DNA from: a virus
Direction: 5' to 3' (one strand)
IMG/VR virus record: IMGVR_UViG_3300020000_000011
Coordinates: 1-64,000 of that record
DNA: 64,000 bases
In this document: positions 149 through 61,774 of the stretch, in pieces
Position numbering within the stretch: position 1 is the first letter of the stretch
Layout: each line of letters starts with the position of its first letter
The notes under the pieces: generated by a model
Told to the model about the DNA's origin: nothing
Databases searched by the model: none
The model's input: the letters and a program-made list of their open reading frames with translations, nothing else
Position numbers and translations under genes: made by a program

Positions 149-378
149 TCGTCTCCGACACCCAGTTGCAGATCTTCGTGATCTACGAGAACCCGGCCGA
201 CGTCCTCGTGCCGTGTTTCGTCACCCGAATGTGGGTGATCGAAGACGGTGAGCAACGTCCGTTGTGGGCGGCGATCGCCCGCACGTTGGACGGTGCCCGC
301 TCTGCGGTCCCGCCCGGCCTGTTCCGCCTCGACCGTTCCCCCGACGACGACCCGGTGATTGTCGAGTGCTGGCTGTGA
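145..378 (+). CDS. small hypothetical phage protein
   Basis: A 77-residue protein starting at a GTG that overlaps the previous stop. It contains IYENPADV and a CFVTRMWV strand followed by acidic turns, a compact alpha/beta pattern of the kind often seen in small actinophage proteins. No catalytic motif is visible and no function is assigned. It is translationally coupled on both sides. Confidence 0.65.
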   Translation: MIVSDTQLQIFVIYENPADVLVPCFVTRMWVIEDGEQRPLWAAIARTLDGARSAVPPGLFRLDRSPDDDPVIVECWL

Positions 379-584
379 CGCTGCGTACAGAGCGCCGCAA
401 GGGCGACCTGACACCGACGCACCTGGTGATCACCCCGACCGCGCAACGCACGATGTGTGGCCGGTTCCGCGACGTGACGTTCCCCCACCAGTGGCTCAAC
501 GCCGCCGTCACCGAAGCCAACCAGGGCCACGACATCTGGTTCTGCGCGAAGTGCGTGAAGGCAGCCGAGGCGCGCCTGACCTAA
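375..584 (+). CDS. small Cys-containing hypothetical protein
   Basis: The GTG at 375 overlaps the previous TGA, giving 69 residues; the open frame extends further upstream, but that would invade the preceding gene. A single Cys (MCGRF) and a CAKC pair near the C-terminus could bind a metal together with nearby His residues. The family is unknown. Confidence 0.6.
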   Translation: MTLRTERRKGDLTPTHLVITPTAQRTMCGRFRDVTFPHQWLNAAVTEANQGHDIWFCAKCVKAAEARLT

Positions 585-3068: not shown

Positions 3069-3643
3069 GGCTGATCGCCCCGATCTACGGCCTGTCGTGC
3101 ATCGCTGCGGCGGGGGCGTTGACGGTGAGCACCCTGTTCGTCTACCAGACCGCGGCCGGTGTCGAGACGACGGCGACGACCACGACCACCTCGACGACCA
3201 CGACGACGATCCCCGAACCGATCCCCGGTCCGCGAGGTCCGCCAGGCCCGGCCGGTCCGAAGGGCGCCCCGGGCGCGCAAGGTGTGTCCGGCCCGCCGGG
3301 ATCCACCGGCCCGCAAGGCGTGTCCGGTCCGCCGGGGCCACCAGGCGCGCAGGGCGCCCAAGGCCAGCAGGGGTCGAGAGGCTCCGACGGTGCCCAAGGT
3401 CAGCGCGGTGCGACCGGCGCCACGGGCGCCCAGGGGCTGCCAGGTGCCACGGGAGCGGCCGGAACGCAAGGTCCGCCAGGATCGGTCGGTGCGACTGGTG
3501 CGGCCGGTGAGATCGGTCCACAGGGGCCAGCGGGGCCTCCCGGTCCGCAGTGCCCGATCGGGTTCCACGGTGCTGTGGTGGCGCTGCACCAGCGCGCCCC
3601 GGTCGACCAGGACCTGACGGTCGCGGTGTGTGTCCCCGACTAG
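3065..3643 (+). CDS. membrane-anchored collagen-like protein
   Basis: 192 residues: an N-terminal hydrophobic segment (~4-27), a threonine-rich linker (~38-50), then about 35 uninterrupted Gly-X-Y triplets rich in Pro, Ala and Gln, and a short end with [10 protein letters not shown]. Gly-X-Y repeats form collagen-like triple helices and are common in phage fibres. The membrane anchor and position beside the holin instead suggest a product displayed on the infected cell, or a spanin-like or adhesion role. It overlaps the holin-like gene by ATGA. Base use is GC-rich and repeat-driven. Confidence 0.75.
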
Positions 3644-16718: not shown

Positions 16719-17448
16719 CGCCGAGGTGATGACCGCGTGGCTCACCGAACTCAACCGCCCGGCCCCCGACCCTGTGACCGTCGCCGCGTTGGAGGCGTCC
16801 GCCGAAGCCAACGGCTGGCAACCGCAGGCCGTGCTCGCCGCGTTCGACGAAGTGCTGCACCCCCGTGGTCACGACGGCCGGTTCATCGAGATCGGTGGAC
16901 TGATGAAGATCATCTCCGGCGACTACAAGGACGAGCGCGGCACGGTCGAGTCGATCACCCCCGACAAGTCCGGTCGCCCGACGATCCGGTTGAAGCTCGA
17001 CGACGGCGAGTCGATCGACGTCAAACCGGATGCCATCGAACAAGCCGCCGACAAGGCCCGGCTCATCGACGCAACGGATATGCCCGCTGTCGGCCGCATC
17101 CCGAGGTCACCGAAGCGGGAGGGACCGGCGCCGACGTTCGCACCGGGCGAACTCGACTGGATCGCCAACCGCGGTCAGGTCGAAGAGACACCGAACGAGG
17201 CTGGTCACAAGAAGTGGACGTACTACGGGAACGAGACGCACACCTCTGGATGGGGCGACTCGGTCAGCAGGCCAGTGACGATTCGGACTGAACTGTCGGA
17301 CCCGGCCGAGTTGGACGACGAAGAGGTGTACCAAGCGTTGATGCTCGTGAAAGATGCACGGTACGGCGTCGATCCACCCGAGGTGACCGCCTACCGCGAC
17401 GCGCTCCAAGACGAATGGCGCATGCGGATCGCCCGGAGTTACCAGTGA
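16711..17448 (+). CDS. HPRG-module protein (possible virion-delivered effector)
   Basis: 245 residues. The N-terminus (EVMTAWLTELNRPAPDPV ... EANGWQPQ) matches that of the next gene, and VLHPRGHDGRFIEIGG (~48-63) is the shared motif. An SH3/KOW-like beta segment follows (GTVESITPDKSGRPTIRL). The C-terminal ~100 residues (WTYYGNETHTSGWGD) are unassigned and may be a small effector domain. It starts 8 nt inside the preceding gene. Confidence 0.65.
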   Translation: MNDAEVMTAWLTELNRPAPDPVTVAALEASAEANGWQPQAVLAAFDEVLHPRGHDGRFIEIGGLMKIISGDYKDERGTVESITPDKSGRPTIRLKLDDGESIDVKPDAIEQAADKARLIDATDMPAVGRIPRSPKREGPAPTFAPGELDWIANRGQVEETPNEAGHKKWTYYGNETHTSGWGDSVSRPVTIRTELSDPAELDDEEVYQALMLVKDARYGVDPPEVTAYRDALQDEWRMRIARSYQ

Positions 17449-19955
17449 ACGATGACGCCGACGTCCTCGCAGCGTGGCTGGTCGAACTGACCCAACCGGA
17501 ACCGAACCCGGCGATCATCGCCTCACTGGAATCGGTCGCCGAAGACAGCGGCTGGTCGCCTCGCCACGCCCTCACTGCCCTGCTGGCACGCACCGACTTC
17601 AACCCCGACCTGCACCCCCGCGGTCACGACGGCAAGTTCATCGAGAAGTTCGGCATCGTCAAACTGCTCGGCAACGTCATCGCACCCGACGGACGCAAGG
17701 TCGACGCCACCGGCCGACGCGGTGTCGTCGAAGGCATCGACCCCGACCCGCGCACCCCCGGCCGACCGAACATCCGTGTCCGCATGATCGACAAGGACGG
17801 CCGACCCGGCCCGCCTGTCCACGTCAAGCCCGACGGTGTCGAACAGGCACCCGAGAAGGCCCGCCTCGACAAGCCTCTCGACCGTGCACCCAGTGGACCC
17901 AGACGCCCGGCACAGGCGCCAGGGCGTCCGCTGGCGACCCCGAAGCGCACCGTGGTACCCGAGACACCCGAACAACGCCAGGCACGCGCTGACGCCGACG
18001 AGAAGGCAGCGATCGCCCGCGAGGCACGCACCGTCCCCAACGCCGACATCGACTACCAGACCACCGTCGGCCCGTCGCAGTGGCGCGACGCGGTGATGAC
18101 CGAGAAGCAGGCCCGCGAAGCCAAAGCCGCAGCCGACCAAGCACGACGCCAGGCGCTGATCGACGACGTCAACGAACAAGCCAAGGGACTGTCAACAACC
18201 GACGCCGAAGAACGAGCCATTGGCCTCGACGCCATCCTCGCCAAGTTGCGGTTCTCGATCATCGACACCGACAAGGTCCACGACCACCTGTACCCGCCCG
18301 AAGACGGCAGCCAGTGGACCCCGGAGCGCACCGCCCAACACGAAGCGATGTGGGAAGAGTTGCTCGCCGACGTCGAGAAGGCCGGGATCCCCAAGGACAA
18401 GGACGCGTTCGTGCTCGGTGGACTCCCGGGCGCGGGCAAGTCGTACTCGCTGCGCCCCGGCGAAGCAGCCGACTCGTTCGGTGTCGTCGCCTGGGAACCG
18501 AACGTCCCCGTCCCCGAAACAGCGACGCACGTGTCGATCAACCCCGACGTCGTGAAAGAGATGCTGATCGCTCACGGCATGCTGCCCGAGGGCCTGTCCG
18601 ACGACATGAAACCGATGGAGAAGGTCACGTTCCTCCACGAAGAATCGTCGTACCTCGCCAAGATGTTCTCCGCCCGACTCGGCGAAGAGGGCTACAACGT
18701 GGTGCTCGACAACACGTTCGACTCCGAGGGCGGGATGCTGAAGCGGATGGCCCCACTCGCTCGCGAGGGCTACACGTTCCGTGGCCTGTTCGCCGACATC
18801 CCGATCGACGAATCGAAGAAGTCGGCCAAGGACCGCTACATCCGTGGCGCGCTGACACCCGAAGGTGGACGGTTCGTCCCCTCCAGCGTGCAGGGCAACC
18901 GGCAGTCGACGAAGTCGTTGTCGAAGAACCGTGACGCGTTCGATCTGATGGTCGCCCAGGACTGGTTCACCGACTGGAAGGTGATCGACAACACCGGCGT
19001 CACTGAAGGCCACCCGAAGAAAGAGATCGTCGGCGAAGGCCAAGGCACCGGCGCGGCAGCGTTCGCCTACCGTCCCGGCCAGGAGAAGAACGCACCCAAG
19101 GTCGGCCCGCGCCTGACACCCGAACAGCAACCGGCACCGACGATCGACGTGTCGACGATCGGTGGACCGAACCGCACCTCGATCTCCCCGGCCGGATCCG
19201 AACAGTTGGCCAAGGACATGATGTCCGGCAAACCGATCGCACCCGAAGACCACGACGTCGACGACATCGTCGACCACTTCGCCGACAGCGAGAACCCGGT
19301 CGACCTGACCCTGATGTCGCAGTTCTCGGCGATGCGCGCCGGTGGCATCCCCCGCTCGCAGATGCCGCAGATCTCCAAGAAACACACCGACGCGTTCCAG
19401 AACCGGTTGCGTGAATCCGGTGTCGACTTCGGCCCCGGGATCGTCGACCCGCTCGACCTGAAAGCGACCCAGTCCGAGTTGGACGGCAAGACCGTCGGCG
19501 GGATCATGCGCGCCGCGAGGGCCGGGGAGATGGACCTCCACGGGCACCCGATCTGGATCTCCAACGACGGGTACGTCCTCGACGGCCACCACCGTTGGGG
19601 CGCGGCGTCGGCACTGTCGTCGAACTGTGGTGAGCCGGGCTGTGTGCAGATCCCGGTGATCCGAGTCGACCTGCCGATGTCCGAGCTACTCCAGTTCGCC
19701 AACACGTTCAATGACGACATGGGTGTCCAGCGTCTCGGTTTCGGAGAGTCGCTCCCGGCCGGGCAGATCGCACCGGTCGCGTCGGGCATGCTCGCTGCCG
19801 CAGAGTTCGGTCCACCGGCGCAACTCCCGGCGCCGGACGACAACGGGAACTACGAGATGGCCACCGACGAAGAGGACGGCGTCAACCCCGCCGATCTGGA
19901 GGGCTTGTCGCACGGTGACGGTTCAGCGTTCGGCTATGAACCGAAGGGCGAGTAA
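17445..19955 (+). CDS. polyvalent protein: HPRG module, zeta-toxin-like kinase, ParB-like domain
   Basis: 836 residues, GTGA-coupled. The N-terminal module repeats the previous protein (AAWLVELTQPEPNP) with DLHPRGHDGKFIEKFG (~55). A long linker leads to a zeta-toxin/UDP-N-acetylglucosamine kinase-like domain: Walker A GGLPGAGKS (G325-S333), VSINPDVVKEML, and NVVLDNTFDSEGGMLKR. Zeta toxins phosphorylate UDP-N-acetylglucosamine and block wall synthesis. A second domain at ~680-740 has ISNDGYVLDGHHRWGAA (D713-G-H-H-R-W), a ParB/Srx-like motif. The end is acidic and disordered. No epsilon-type antitoxin is evident nearby. Substrate and delivery are inferred. Confidence 0.75.
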   Translation: MNDDADVLAAWLVELTQPEPNPAIIASLESVAEDSGWSPRHALTALLARTDFNPDLHPRGHDGKFIEKFGIVKLLGNVIAPDGRKVDATGRRGVVEGIDPDPRTPGRPNIRVRMIDKDGRPGPPVHVKPDGVEQAPEKARLDKPLDRAPSGPRRPAQAPGRPLATPKRTVVPETPEQRQARADADEKAAIAREARTVPNADIDYQTTVGPSQWRDAVMTEKQAREAKAAADQARRQALIDDVNEQAKGLSTTDAEERAIGLDAILAKLRFSIIDTDKVHDHLYPPEDGSQWTPERTAQHEAMWEELLADVEKAGIPKDKDAFVLGGLPGAGKSYSLRPGEAADSFGVVAWEPNVPVPETATHVSINPDVVKEMLIAHGMLPEGLSDDMKPMEKVTFLHEESSYLAKMFSARLGEEGYNVVLDNTFDSEGGMLKRMAPLAREGYTFRGLFADIPIDESKKSAKDRYIRGALTPEGGRFVPSSVQGNRQSTKSLSKNRDAFDLMVAQDWFTDWKVIDNTGVTEGHPKKEIVGEGQGTGAAAFAYRPGQEKNAPKVGPRLTPEQQPAPTIDVSTIGGPNRTSISPAGSEQLAKDMMSGKPIAPEDHDVDDIVDHFADSENPVDLTLMSQFSAMRAGGIPRSQMPQISKKHTDAFQNRLRESGVDFGPGIVDPLDLKATQSELDGKTVGGIMRAARAGEMDLHGHPIWISNDGYVLDGHHRWGAASALSSNCGEPGCVQIPVIRVDLPMSELLQFANTFNDDMGVQRLGFGESLPAGQIAPVASGMLAAAEFGPPAQLPAPDDNGNYEMATDEEDGVNPADLEGLSHGDGSAFGYEPKGE

Positions 19956-28226: not shown

Positions 28227-28990
28227 TGGCCATGAAGCGACTGTTCGGCAACCAGTTCCCGGTGACGATGGAACGCAAAGACGGCCGACTGATCTACCTC
28301 GTCAACGAAGCGTTCTACGACGAGCACGCCCGTGAGGCGCGCATCGACGACGACTACGCCGGGAAGTTCATGGCCGTCGACACCGTCGTGTTGGACTCCG
28401 ACAACGAGTTCCGGTTCCTCGACGACTCCGGCGACAAGGTCGTGTTGCGCCCGACCCGGCCAGATGACGCCGCAGCGTCGCCCATGTTCAGCCTCGGCAT
28501 CCCACTTCCCGTCGAAATCATTGGAGCATTCATGACCGGCACCATCAGCGAACCGTCGATCTCGGCAGCCGTCGACGACGAAGGCGACGTTCACACCATG
28601 ATCCTCGAAACCGGTACGGGGTTATACGCAAGGTACTCGCGGCAGTGGATCCTGCTGTCCGACATCTCGCCGATCGAATCGCTCGACATCGTCGATGTCC
28701 CAGGGTCGGACCTGGAGCACTACGACATGGCCGACGACGTCGGCAAGGTGATCTCGATCCGTGACCTGTCGCCGATCAACCCGCCCGCAGCGTCGGCGAC
28801 CGGGCCGTCGCGTGCCGAACCACCCCCGGCGGTGACCGCCTCGGCGTCGGCGATGATCGTGGTCGCCTCCGCAGCCGACATCCCCGAGGCCATCGCCTGG
28901 GCTGAAGGCCACCCCGAGTCACGCTGGTACGTCGCCAGGAAGGCCCAGGCGCTCGGCTGGGCCGCTCCGATGCCGTGGGCTGACCAGTGA
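28226..28990 (+). CDS. hypothetical protein downstream of giant gene
   Basis: 254 residues, TGATG-coupled. The N-terminal half is beta-rich and acidic; the last ~30 residues (PEAIAWAEGHPESRWYVARK) resemble AANPETRWYAQRSL at the start of the giant protein, a short phage-type helix. This suggests assembly with, or targeting like, the large proteins. No enzyme motif is visible. Confidence 0.6.
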   Translation: MAMKRLFGNQFPVTMERKDGRLIYLVNEAFYDEHAREARIDDDYAGKFMAVDTVVLDSDNEFRFLDDSGDKVVLRPTRPDDAAASPMFSLGIPLPVEIIGAFMTGTISEPSISAAVDDEGDVHTMILETGTGLYARYSRQWILLSDISPIESLDIVDVPGSDLEHYDMADDVGKVISIRDLSPINPPAASATGPSRAEPPPAVTASASAMIVVASAADIPEAIAWAEGHPESRWYVARKAQALGWAAPMPWADQ

Positions 28991-29994
28991 AGCCCAGAAC
29001 GTTCCCGGTCCCTGTGGGGGCACGTAGCGGCCTCCTGGGGGCTGCTGCAACGTTCGATCAGATCGACCTCGCGGCCACGCTCGGCAACCGGTGGGCGGGC
29101 AAGATCCTGGCCCGCGAGAACGCCCGCATCCTCGGCTCGGTCCTCGGCAACGACATGCGGCTCCCGTTCGGGATCTGCACCGAAGTCGACGACGACCTGT
29201 TCGTCACCGCCCTCGTGCGCGGCAACGAGTGTTTCACCGCCGCCGGATGGCTCCCTGTGGACGACCCTGTGGACGACCCGATCCCGCTCGACGCCGACGA
29301 GGTCGCGTTCGTTGCCCGGGCGTTCGGCGAAGGGTACGACTGCGTGATCATGAAGGGCTACGCACCTGTGGCGATGCTGGCCACCTCGATGCCGGTCCCT
29401 GGCACCGACGCCCCGGCCGTCGACGTTCCTGAAGGCGCCAAGATCCTCGCCGTGGTCGACGACGGTGACCGCAACGCTGTCCTCGACGTCATCGCTGTCG
29501 CGCCTGGCCCGAAGGTGTACCGCCGCCACGACGGCACCTGGCAGGAAGACACGTCGTTCATCGCCCGGCTGCGCTCGGTGAAACCGCCGCCGGTCGTCGC
29601 CCTCGACGAGGCACAGTTGGCGTCGGTGCTCCCGCAGGTCGACGAGCAGACCGCCGGGATCCCGTTCACCAAGGAACCCCCGAAGAAAGCGACGACGGCG
29701 TCGGCGTACTCGGATCGGGCCGACGAGATGGCAATCGAGTTCGCGCTGCTCGCAGCAGGGCCGGGCAAGGCCCTGTCGCAGGCGACACCGGGCGGGCGTG
29801 AACCGGCGCAGCTACGCGAATACTGGGCGTTCGGTCCCGGCGCAGCGAAGATCCGGTGGGGCACACCAGGCGCATGGCGCAGGTGCCACCGCCAGTTGAC
29901 GAAGTACGTCGGCCCACTCATCTCCAAGGGGCTGTGTACGAATCTGGCGAAGCTGCGTGGCGGGCATGGTGTCGCCACGCACGTCGGCAGCTAG
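28987..29994 (+). CDS. head-associated-type protein with C-terminal YW-GxG-KIRW domain
   Basis: 335 residues, GTGA-coupled. The C-terminus (LREYWAFGPGAAKIRWGTPG then RRCHRQLTKYV) is a motif I recognise from C-terminal domains of actinophage capsid-region proteins. The N-terminal ~200 residues are mixed alpha/beta with Pro-rich linkers. It ends the 12419-29994 block just before a hairpin. A structural or packaging-signal role is inferred. Confidence 0.6.
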   Translation: MKPRTFPVPVGARSGLLGAAATFDQIDLAATLGNRWAGKILARENARILGSVLGNDMRLPFGICTEVDDDLFVTALVRGNECFTAAGWLPVDDPVDDPIPLDADEVAFVARAFGEGYDCVIMKGYAPVAMLATSMPVPGTDAPAVDVPEGAKILAVVDDGDRNAVLDVIAVAPGPKVYRRHDGTWQEDTSFIARLRSVKPPPVVALDEAQLASVLPQVDEQTAGIPFTKEPPKKATTASAYSDRADEMAIEFALLAAGPGKALSQATPGGREPAQLREYWAFGPGAAKIRWGTPGAWRRCHRQLTKYVGPLISKGLCTNLAKLRGGHGVATHVGS

Positions 29995-30081: not shown

Positions 30082-31659
30082 TTAGGCGATCTTCCGGCGG
30101 CGACTAGCGACGGCCAGCAAGGTGCCCGCGCCGACCATCAAGAATGCGATGCCCGACGTCGTGTCGGTGGTCGAACCGGTGTGCGGCAGCCCCGTCGGTG
30201 GGGGCGTGACACCAGGCGGGAACGGGCCATCAGGGTTGGCGCAGTTCGCCGACTCCGGCGGGTAGGTGACAAACGCCGTCGCCGTCGGGTTGACCGTGTA
30301 CGTCAAGTTGATCCCGGCCCGAAGGAACTCGTCGCTCGGGTCACGAACCCAGAAGCCAGCGCCGTTCAGGTTCCATCCCGGCACATCGGCGATCGTGCCG
30401 TCAGCGTTGACCCTCGTGCCCGGGTACAGCAGGTCCACCGTCGCGCCCGGCTGGTAGACCAGCGGCTGGGTCGACACCACGTTGCCGTTGACGTCGGCCA
30501 TCGTCAGCGTCCCGGTCTGCCCGGCCAACTGTGGGAACTGGTTCTGGAACACGATGCGGATCGTCGGGACCTCGCGGACGCACACCGTCGCCGCGGCTCC
30601 GAAACTGAAGGTCGGTGGCAGCGTCGTCGTTGAAGCCGGAAGCGTCGAAGTGGGGCCGGTGGGCGAGAGGGTGGTCGTGACGCCCGTGGTCGTCGGGGCA
30701 ACCGTCCCCGTAGTAGTGGGTGCGACCGTTGTCGATGTCGTTGATGTCGTTGCTCCTGTGGTCGTGGTCGCCGGGATCGTGGTGGTGCTCGTCGTCGTCG
30801 TGGCGGGCGGGCAGTCCGGCGGGAACGTCACCGACGCCGTTGCTGTCTCCTGGCCGAGCGAGAAGATCAGGTTCACGTTCTGTGTCGTGTTCGGGTAGGC
30901 GATCGTCACCGTGGTGTTCGACTGGAAGGTCAGGAACACCGACCCTCCGGTGCTGAACGACAGGACCCCGATCTGACCGTCCAAGTCGGGCCGGTTGCCG
31001 AACGTGATCGAGATCTCGGGCAGGAAGTCGGCACCGCAGAAGGCGAAGACGTTGACGCCGAACAGGCTGACTCTCGGCCCCGTCGTCGTGGTCGCCGGGA
31101 TCGTGGTGCTCGACGTGGTCGTCGCCGCGGCGGTCGTGGTCGTGTTCTTCACGGTCGTCGTTGTCGCAGCGGCAGTCGTCGTGGTGGCCTTGACCGTGGT
31201 GGTCGTGGCCTTCTCCGTCGTCGTGGTGTTCTTCACGGTGGTCGGCGGGTATGTCGTCGTGTCGTGCTTCACCGTGGTGGTCGTGTGTGCCGCGGTGGTC
31301 GTGGTGGCCTTCTCGGTCGTCGTGGTCCCACCACCATCGGCTGGCGGGCACTCGTGCACCGACGGCTCCGGCTGACCGACGTCGAAAGCGATCGCCACGC
31401 TGCGACCCTGCGCGTCGTTGAAGAAGTCACCGATCCGCACGAAGTTGCGGAGACTGTTGGTGTCGACGGAGATCGGATTGTCGCCGGTCTGCAACCGCTC
31501 ATCGACGCCGGGTTTGCCGACGTACTTGCACACGAACACCTTGTGCGACACCTCGACCGTCGTCTCCGTCGTCGGGTACGGGTTGTCCTCCAGTGCCAGT
31601 GCGGCGGTGCCGCAACTCGCGAGTAGCAATCCACTCAGCAGGGCCAGTGTGCGTTTCAC
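30082..31659 (-). CDS. threonine-rich LPXTG-anchored surface protein
   Basis: 525 residues from the GTG at 31659, 7 nt after TACTGT on the minus strand; tandem GTGs allow a start one codon earlier. A signal peptide with a lipobox-like LLASC (C16) is followed by an N-terminal domain, a long Thr-rich stretch, and two beta-domains separated by Thr-rich linkers. The end has LPHTG, a hydrophobic span and RRRK, a complete sortase signal. Such proteins are covalently fixed to the wall of Gram-positive hosts. The combination of lipobox and LPXTG is odd. Architecture and Thr linkers resemble Acidimicrobiia surface proteins. On a phage it may act as a surface modifier or superinfection barrier. Confidence 0.8.
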   Translation of the reverse strand: MKRTLALLSGLLLASCGTAALALEDNPYPTTETTVEVSHKVFVCKYVGKPGVDERLQTGDNPISVDTNSLRNFVRIGDFFNDAQGRSVAIAFDVGQPEPSVHECPPADGGGTTTTEKATTTTAAHTTTTVKHDTTTYPPTTVKNTTTTEKATTTTVKATTTTAAATTTTVKNTTTTAAATTTSSTTIPATTTTGPRVSLFGVNVFAFCGADFLPEISITFGNRPDLDGQIGVLSFSTGGSVFLTFQSNTTVTIAYPNTTQNVNLIFSLGQETATASVTFPPDCPPATTTTSTTTIPATTTTGATTSTTSTTVAPTTTGTVAPTTTGVTTTLSPTGPTSTLPASTTTLPPTFSFGAAATVCVREVPTIRIVFQNQFPQLAGQTGTLTMADVNGNVVSTQPLVYQPGATVDLLYPGTRVNADGTIADVPGWNLNGAGFWVRDPSDEFLRAGINLTYTVNPTATAFVTYPPESANCANPDGPFPPGVTPPPTGLPHTGSTTDTTSGIAFLMVGAGTLLAVASRRRKIA

Positions 31660-31702
31660 CACCCGCACAGTACCCACCTGTAACGGCGAATAACCGGATA
31701 TC

Positions 31703-31780
31703 TGGTGGCAGGGGCGGGATTCGAACCTCGCGACCTCCGGGTTATGAACCCGACGAGCTACCGGACTGCTCTACCCTGCG
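31703..31780 (-). tRNA. tRNA-fMet (anticodon CAU, initiator type)
   Basis: A complete cloverleaf with encoded CCA. Initiator hallmarks: C1 opposite C72 (unpaired end), A11:U24 in the D stem, and three consecutive G:C pairs in the anticodon stem (TCGGG TTCATAA CCCGG). It resembles E. coli initiator tRNA across most of its length. The T arm has one extra base (an A bulge in GCGAGG opposite CCCGC), giving 78 nt. It overlaps the 3' end of the gene at 31742 and lies upstream of the LPXTG gene on the same strand. Confidence 0.8.
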
Positions 31781-31954
31781 CTGCTCGGACTGTACATCGT
31801 CGTCGGCATCGTCGACGTCGGTTAACACGTAGATCGGCTGACCGGCACGGTCCCACGCCTCGGCGTCCTCGACCGTGTCGAACGTGATGCAGATCAGTCG
31901 CTGCCTGGCCGAGAAGGTGTGCGACCGGTGATCGTGCGGCGTGTGGCGCCTCAC
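31742..31954 (-). CDS. small hypothetical protein overlapping tRNA
   Basis: 70 residues from a GTG overlapping the upstream stop. RLICITFDTVEDAEAWDRAG is a credible folded core; the Ser/Gln-rich tail is encoded inside the tRNA-fMet gene (39 nt overlap). The true product may end early by RNA processing. Its function is unknown. Confidence 0.5.
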   Translation of the reverse strand: MRRHTPHDHRSHTFSARQRLICITFDTVEDAEAWDRAGQPIYVLTDVDDADDDVQSEQRRVEQSGSSSGS

Positions 31955-32130
31955 CGCTTCAACCTGTCGAGGTAGTCGATGTACGCCTCGGCCGAGTTCA
32001 ACAGTTCCGGCCCGGTGTACGGCCCCGGCGTCATCACCCCGGCGGCGACGAGGATGTCGCCGAGCGCCTGCCACGCCTGCGTTGCCTGCGCGGCCTTGAT
32101 CATCAACTCTTCACGTTCGCGGCGTCGCAT
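31951..32130 (-). CDS. small helical protein (59 aa)
   Basis: Starts at an ATG overlapping the upstream gene by 20 nt. Helical, with TQAWQALGDILVAAGVM. Coupled to the gene below by GTGA. Its function is unknown. Confidence 0.55.
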   Translation of the reverse strand: MRRREREELMIKAAQATQAWQALGDILVAAGVMTPGPYTGPELLNSAEAYIDYLDRLKR

Positions 32131-36810: not shown

Positions 36811-36811
36811 G

Positions 36812-36882
36812 CAGCCCCAACGGGATTCGAACCCGTGTTTCCACCCTGAGAAAGTGGAGTCCTGCCGCTGAACGATGGGGCC
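36812..36882 (-). tRNA. tRNA-Glu (anticodon probably CUC)
   Basis: Acceptor GGCCCCA pairs with TGGGGCT, the T arm is ACGGG TTCGAAT CCCGT, and the anticodon stem is CCACT/GGTGG with loop TTCTCAG. Reading the loop gives CUC (Glu, GAG). The 31-39 pair is U:G, and shifting the loop by one base would give UUC, also Glu. No CCA is encoded. Confidence 0.75.
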
Positions 36883-36883
36883 G

Positions 36884-36959
36884 TGGAGCGGATGACGGGA
36901 ATCGAACCCGCGACCTCGACCTTGGCAAGGTCGCGCTCTGCCAACTGAGCCACATCCGC
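36884..36959 (-). tRNA. tRNA-Gly (anticodon GCC)
   Basis: A clean cloverleaf: acceptor GCGGATG/CATCCGC, anticodon arm CGACC TTGCCAA GGTCG, T arm GCGGG TTCGATT CCCGT, discriminator T and encoded CCA. It decodes GGC, the most frequent Gly codon in this window. One base separates it from tRNA-Glu, so both come from one leftward transcript. Confidence 0.9.
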
Positions 36960-60437: not shown

Positions 60438-61774
60438 TGGGGACACTCAAAGCGTGGGTCGGCGGCGCCTGGGTGCCGATCGGGGGCGGCTCCGGCAGCG
60501 GTGGTGGCGCGGAAGAAGTGTGGGTCGGTCCGGCCGATCCGGGTACCGTTGGCCCGTTCGAATTGTGGTACGACACCGACGCCTCCGCGCTCCCACCAGC
60601 GGGTACCGGGTTGCCTCCTGGTGGTGCGGCCGGGACGGTGCTTCGGAAGAAATCGGCGACGGACTTCAACACTGAATGGTTCGCCCCCCCGCTCGCCGGT
60701 CGCAACCTGCTCGACAACGGGCAGATGGCCGTCAACCAGCGACAGAACGCCAACGGTGTCATCTCGCGTATCAGTGACCGCTGGTCGATCCCTAACAACG
60801 GGGTCGGCGTGACCACCCTCAACTACGGCACGCTCGCCAACTTCGGTGGGTTCTCGTCCGTCGCCTCGCGCCCTCGGCCAGCGAACGTCCAGTTCGTGCA
60901 GATCTCCACCGCCGAAGCGGCGGGTTCGCTCGCCGCTGCCGACTACTGCCAATGGATCCAGACCGTCGAAGGGTTGAACCTCCAGCACCTCAACTGGGGC
61001 AGTGCCGACGCGCAGCCGGTGACGTACAGCTTCGATATTTACTCGACGATCGCCAGCACGTACGTCGTCGAGTTGTACCGCGCCGAAACCACGGCACGAG
61101 TGATCTCGGCGCTGCTGCCCGTCCCGGCCGGGTGGTCGACACAGTCGGTGACCTTCCCCGGTGACACGGCCGCTGGGATCACCAACGACAACCTGGGCCG
61201 GTTGCAGGTCACCGTGTGGTTGGCAGCGGGATCGAACTACACGTCCGGCACGTTGCAGACGGCGTGGGGCAACGTCGTCCAGACCAACCGTGCCGTGGGC
61301 CTGTCGAACGCCATCCAGGCGACGGTCAACCAGGTCTTCGCTCTGACGAACTGCCAGTTCGAAGTCGGGTCGGCACCGACGCCGTACGAGGTGCTCCGCT
61401 ACGACGTCGATCTGGCTCGCTGCCAGCGGTACGCGTTCTACCCGGGCAAGGACATCCCGACTGCCAACTATGTGGTGCTGGGTGGTGGCATGGCGACGGC
61501 GACAACGTCGGTGGCGTCACTGTTCTGGCTGCCGGTGGCGATGCGAACGGCGCCCACCTGGGACCTGAACGGCACCGCAGCAACGATCTACGGGTTGCAC
61601 GATCGCATCGGCACCGCCGGGGCGGTGTCGGCCATCGCACAGGACGTGGTGTCAACGCCGACGGTCGCCGCGCTCCAGTCGACGTGCAACGCCGTGCTCA
61701 CTGTCGGTCGCTACTACCAGATGCTCAGGAACTCGGGCCAGGCCGGTTGCGGTGGATGGACGGCGGACATCTGA
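60437..61774 (+). CDS. fibre/tip protein, paralogue A
   Basis: 445 residues. A short N-terminal AWVGGAWVPIGGG segment, then EEVWVGP...ELWYDTD, then RNLLDNGQMAVNQR starting a jelly-roll, carbohydrate-binding-like domain (~95-310) with DRWSIPNNGVG and RPRPANVQFVQIS. The C-terminal ~120 residues differ from its paralogues and may set specificity. Start fixed by TGATG. Confidence 0.7.
   Translation: MGTLKAWVGGAWVPIGGGSGSGGGAEEVWVGPADPGTVGPFELWYDTDASALPPAGTGLPPGGAAGTVLRKKSATDFNTEWFAPPLAGRNLLDNGQMAVNQRQNANGVISRISDRWSIPNNGVGVTTLNYGTLANFGGFSSVASRPRPANVQFVQISTAEAAGSLAAADYCQWIQTVEGLNLQHLNWGSADAQPVTYSFDIYSTIASTYVVELYRAETTARVISALLPVPAGWSTQSVTFPGDTAAGITNDNLGRLQVTVWLAAGSNYTSGTLQTAWGNVVQTNRAVGLSNAIQATVNQVFALTNCQFEVGSAPTPYEVLRYDVDLARCQRYAFYPGKDIPTANYVVLGGGMATATTSVASLFWLPVAMRTAPTWDLNGTAATIYGLHDRIGTAGAVSAIAQDVVSTPTVAALQSTCNAVLTVGRYYQMLRNSGQAGCGGWTADI

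Follow-up and report, generated by a model that had tools for sequence, protein, structure and literature searches.

The window, which is the whole 64,000-nt stretch of viral DNA that was analyzed, encodes an initiator-class tRNA whose T stem contains one bulged base. This structure recurs among viral and bacterial initiators, is nearly restricted to initiators, and here occurs together with an intact phage. The gene is probably an intact phage initiator of a recurring bulged sub-type that acts as a working spare for infection, a function that we infer. Both ARAGORN and Rfam (RF00005, cut-off of 29 bits) call the 78-nt tRNA on the minus strand, from 31780 to 31703. The relevant features are as follows.

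31703–31780, minus strand: initiator-class tRNA gene (tRNA-fMet, CAU), 78 nt including the encoded CCA (ARAGORN, Rfam, covariance models, folding)
31744–31746, minus strand: CAU anticodon (ARAGORN)
31728, minus strand: bulged A at T-stem positions 51/52 (insertion in covariance-model alignments; likewise in viral and bacterial initiators)
31748, minus strand: U32, where nearly all initiators examined have C32 (comparison with viral and bacterial initiators)
31789–31794, minus strand: candidate −10 box TACAGT, 8 nt upstream of C1 (proposed from the sequence)
30082–31677, minus strand: Thr-rich ORF on the same strand as the tRNA; it begins 25 nt past the CCA end and encodes a lipoprotein-like signal peptide

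Read 5′ to 3′, the tRNA consists of CGCAGGG TA GAGC AGTCCGGTA GCTC G TCGGG TTCATAA CCCGG AGGTC and, following the AGGTC variable loop, GCG[A]GG TTCGAAT CCCGC CCCTGC C A CCA. All of the features listed in the initial annotation are present: an unpaired C1xC72, A11:U24, three G:C pairs in the anticodon stem, the CAU anticodon, the encoded CCA, and the extra A in the T stem. The 1:72 position is open in both the minimum free energy (MFE) fold and the Rfam alignment, and the three consecutive G:C pairs (29–31:39–41) are found in the sequence, the model alignment, and the fold. A11:U24, G2:C71, and C3:G70, which have a role in formylation (PMC11231383), are likewise all observed in the sequence and the model alignment. 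The MFE fold is a cloverleaf in which the A is bulged and two additional pairs are drawn across the anticodon loop. In agreement with this fold, the covariance-model alignments treat the A as an insertion, placed between nucleotides 51 and 52 and flanked by the pairs 51:63 and 52:62. The T stem thereby has one extra nucleotide and five standard pairs, and the bulge is real.

In place of tRNAscan-SE, the class was assigned using two purpose-built covariance models: R1, made from 30 canonical-length viral initiators, and R2, made from 20 other CAU tRNAs, mostly elongator Met. R1 gives the window tRNA 83.9 bits and R2 gives it 60.9 bits, whereas a true elongator tRNA-Met in locus L142, the control, scores 70.8 and 92.5 bits, respectively. 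The tRNA is of the initiator class, as had been claimed, and the elongator assignment that would have contradicted this claim was not obtained. Relative to the canonical bacterial initiator, it shares the 1:72 mismatch, G2:C71, C3:G70, A11:U24, the three G:C pairs, CAU, A37, and the AGGUC variable loop. It differs in the bulge between positions 51 and 52, in U32, in A4:U69, and in having C1xC72 instead of the commoner C1xA72.

The 96,595-base IMG/VR record contains tailed-phage genes for a portal/protease, major capsid, major tail, and terminase, which bears out the view that the tRNA is phage-encoded. Its nearest cultured relatives are the actinophages DSL-LC01 and Gordonia GodonK/Phendrix (terminase identity of about 40–43%), and the host phylum is likely Actinomycetota. 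With the 12.5 kb around the tRNA as the query, a DNA search of phages gave no match, and a search for relatives via the protein encoded at 28987–29994 found none. Searches with the capsid and portal proteins returned relatives with syntenic structural modules. These relatives have no initiator tRNA at the corresponding place, so the tRNA gene is accessory. The TACAGT box is of the TANNNT type seen in the leaderless promoters, and from this sequence the tRNA may be transcribed from its own promoter. The downstream Thr-rich ORF, which has no match in Pfam or PHROGs, may share its transcript. An upstream ORF on the same strand (31742–32074, minus) overlaps the tRNA, and its stop codon TAA (31744–31742) is located within the anticodon loop. 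Elsewhere in the window, a tRNA-Gly with an encoded CCA adjoins a tRNA-Glu without one (36811–36959, minus), and an 846-aa protein (17415–19955, plus) contains a Zeta_toxin-type P-loop domain at residues 327–495 (Pfam E 3.4e-10). A tRNA-Cys called by ARAGORN at 61216–61289 (minus) is likely false; it lies within an ORF that resembles tail fibres and does not reach the Rfam cut-off.

An initiator tRNA had been considered uncommon in phages. This description does not hold: 202 phage records match the window tRNA by blastn, not every one of them a phage-borne initiator, and a scan of viral contigs for initiator tRNAs gave at least 119 matches. A phage-encoded initiator tRNA is, by itself, common and ordinary. 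Those of Gordonia GodonK, Sixama, GMA2, and Mycobacterium Myrna are phage-borne like the window tRNA and also initiator-like (80.7–90.6 bits on R1). Unlike the window tRNA, they have a T stem of canonical length and sit in tRNA clusters, and in those of GodonK and Myrna, the third pair of the anticodon stem is A29:U41.

The bulge sets the window tRNA apart. A search pattern for an initiator with one additional base before GGTTC matches 16 viral contigs, 12 of which have an intact bulged tRNA. In bacteria, it matches at least 120 stretches, the majority of them from Clostridia; intact bulged initiators are thus present in 12 viral contigs besides this phage and in more than 100 bacterial ones. 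Five pairs plus one bulged base are formed by 123 of the 128 bulged-pattern tRNAs called by ARAGORN, and the bulged base is T in 72, A in 49, and C in 2. The flanking triplets at 49:65, 50:64, and 51:63 covary (GTG/CAC, GCG/CGC, ATG/CAT, AGG/CCT, GAG/CTC, and ACG/CGT), and three random pairs would all be standard with a chance of about 5%. Among 384 elongators from the contigs bearing bulged initiators, only one has the same bulge; because the initiators were retrieved by the pattern, the bulge counts measure specificity and not prevalence. The bulge is recurrent in initiators and nearly absent from the elongators sampled. The lone bulged elongator, at 343–420 (plus) of locus L015, is an odd 78-nt tRNA-Ser(tga) that lacks a long variable arm; it adjoins a bulged initiator, and the T-stem bulge is common to both. 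At 3105–3131 (minus) of locus L014, the T arm of a viral initiator, GGGAGG-TTCGATT-CCTCCC, could form six pairs instead of five and a bulge.

In the bulged initiators of Clostridia (e.g., L144 and L258) and in the accessory copies of Streptomyces-type genomes (L183 and L196), the bulge is placed as in the window tRNA, and the T arm of L144 is identical to that of the window tRNA. The Clostridia copies, unlike the window tRNA, are chromosomal and have C32 and C1xA72. In a sample of this class, 11 of 104 Clostridia genomes have only a bulged initiator among the matches listed, and none are mixed. As the bulged gene is the sole matched initiator in these 11 genomes, the bulged form can by itself suffice for initiation. 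The Streptomyces-type genomes, which were chosen for having the bulge, retain canonical initiators beside it: an Actinacidiphila genome and a Streptomyces (L183 and L196) each have bulged copies alongside three canonical ones. In the Acidimicrobiia and Actinomycetia samples (about 150 matches listed each), the listed matches are canonical initiators, except in the seed Actinacidiphila genome; several of these class surveys cover only the matches listed, and their proportions are those of samples. With the listed Actinomycetota matches canonical, the phage tRNA departs from the initiators typical of its likely host phylum.

These observations argue against the suggestion that the bulge marks decay. 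A decaying pseudo-tRNA, with the bulge as an early lesion, would account for the one extra base and for the modest general tRNA score (56.7 bits on RF00005), but all of the other stems are intact, the CCA is present, and the chromosomal initiator in Clostridia loci such as L144 has exactly the T arm of the window tRNA, GCG[A]GG-TTCGAAT-CCCGC. Considered with the recurrence of the variant, its covarying flanks, and its presence as the sole matched initiator in the Clostridia genomes listed, this explanation is highly improbable and already largely refuted. The open-access literature searched yielded no account of a bulge like this. The bulge represents a recurrent structural variant, not a product of decay, and this variant deserves a test.

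The position of the bulge suggests a role. The affinity of EF-Tu is set by T-stem pairs 49:65, 50:64, and 51:63, and a G51–G52 motif is reported to aid IF2 (PMC11231383). As the bulge falls between these affinity pairs and G52, it most likely helps to exclude the tRNA from elongation and would leave initiation intact. A G:C pair at 51:63 (G51) is found in 94% of bulged versus 16% of canonical initiators. Weak pairs at positions 49–51 occur in 16% of bulged versus 47% of canonical initiators in the pooled set, a contrast that is confounded by phylogeny and for which the bulged set, because of how it was retrieved, could contain no mismatches; within Clostridia, the contrast is not significant (62% versus 45%, n = 11). 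We hypothesize that the bulge acts in place of the weak pairs to bar the tRNA from elongation. More tentatively, the 51/52 bulge could be a natural device that recurs, is restricted to initiators, and either substitutes for weak T-stem pairs as a barrier to EF-Tu or tunes the binding of IF2; phages would have spread or re-evolved it.

The phage most likely carries the initiator to secure initiation while the host tRNA is short or cleaved. The tRNA would be expressed, perhaps under its own TANNNT promoter, would receive Met and be formylated, and would then supplement or replace the host initiator when the latter is limiting or cleaved during infection. Nuclease evasion by phage tRNAs is a published model (PMC10264068). 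A more specific purpose would be escape from a putative VapC-type host anticodon nuclease via U32, or via the bulge if the T arm is read. In enteric bacteria and Leptospira, initiator tRNA is the cleavage target of VapC toxins, and phage tRNAs tend toward anticodon-loop changes (PMC10264068). U32 is found in 6 of 101 distinct viral versus 0 of 83 distinct bacterial initiators (p = 0.03; the bacterial set is mostly Clostridia), and the only U32 match in 198 Actinomycetota genomes (L375) is not an initiator, its acceptor and D stems being elongator-like, and was discarded. By this comparison, U32 appears to be a viral-enriched anticodon-loop change, with a small contrast. However, this contrast is weak, the bacterial initiators compared may not be those of the host, and most phage initiators keep C32; nuclease escape is therefore credible but rather unlikely.

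A connection to leaderless translation, which had also been put forward, is less likely still. The leaderless genes themselves are real: at 19 candidate starts, a TANNNT box ends 6–7 nt ahead of the start codon, compared to about one at any other offset. In addition, fMet-tRNA enhances leaderless translation strongly and canonical translation only mildly (PMC9031893), and extra fMet-tRNA could thus favor leaderless initiation on 70S ribosomes. Across 12 phages, however, initiator carriage does not track the leaderless signal. The signal is missing from Myrna despite its initiator, whereas Cece and Big4 show the signal but lack an initiator, and the signal in the initiator-bearing GodonK, Sixama, GMA2, and Myrna is below that in the relatives Cece, Big4, Mareelih, and DSL-LC01, which carry none. 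Initiators are also present in many phages of non-leaderless hosts. As this survey is rough, with a crude gene caller and a small sample, it weakens the proposed link rather than refuting it. Lower again is the probability of tRNA-dependent lysogeny, in which integration of the phage disrupts the host tRNA-fMet gene and the phage-borne copy stands in for it. Such lysogeny has been published for lysogens of actinobacteriophages (PMC10865867), and initiator genes do serve as integration sites: at loci L010, L013, L143, L234, and L250, all that is present of a bulged initiator is its 3′ half, from about the anticodon loop on, and these are probable integration-site remnants. Lysogeny is disfavored because neither a tyrosine integrase (PF00589) nor a serine recombinase (PF00239) was found in the 96.6-kb record at E ≤ 1. 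Related phages measure 103–194 kb, so the record may be a fragment, which makes this absence less firm.

T-stem pairs 49–51 determine the affinity for EF-Tu, and the exclusion of initiators from elongation is a standing question; a bulge at this place, which initiators tolerate and elongators almost always lack, provides a ready-made natural experiment. Finally, the structure of a phage initiator tRNA can depart from that of the initiators in the likely host phylum, and the purpose of phage initiators thereby becomes testable.
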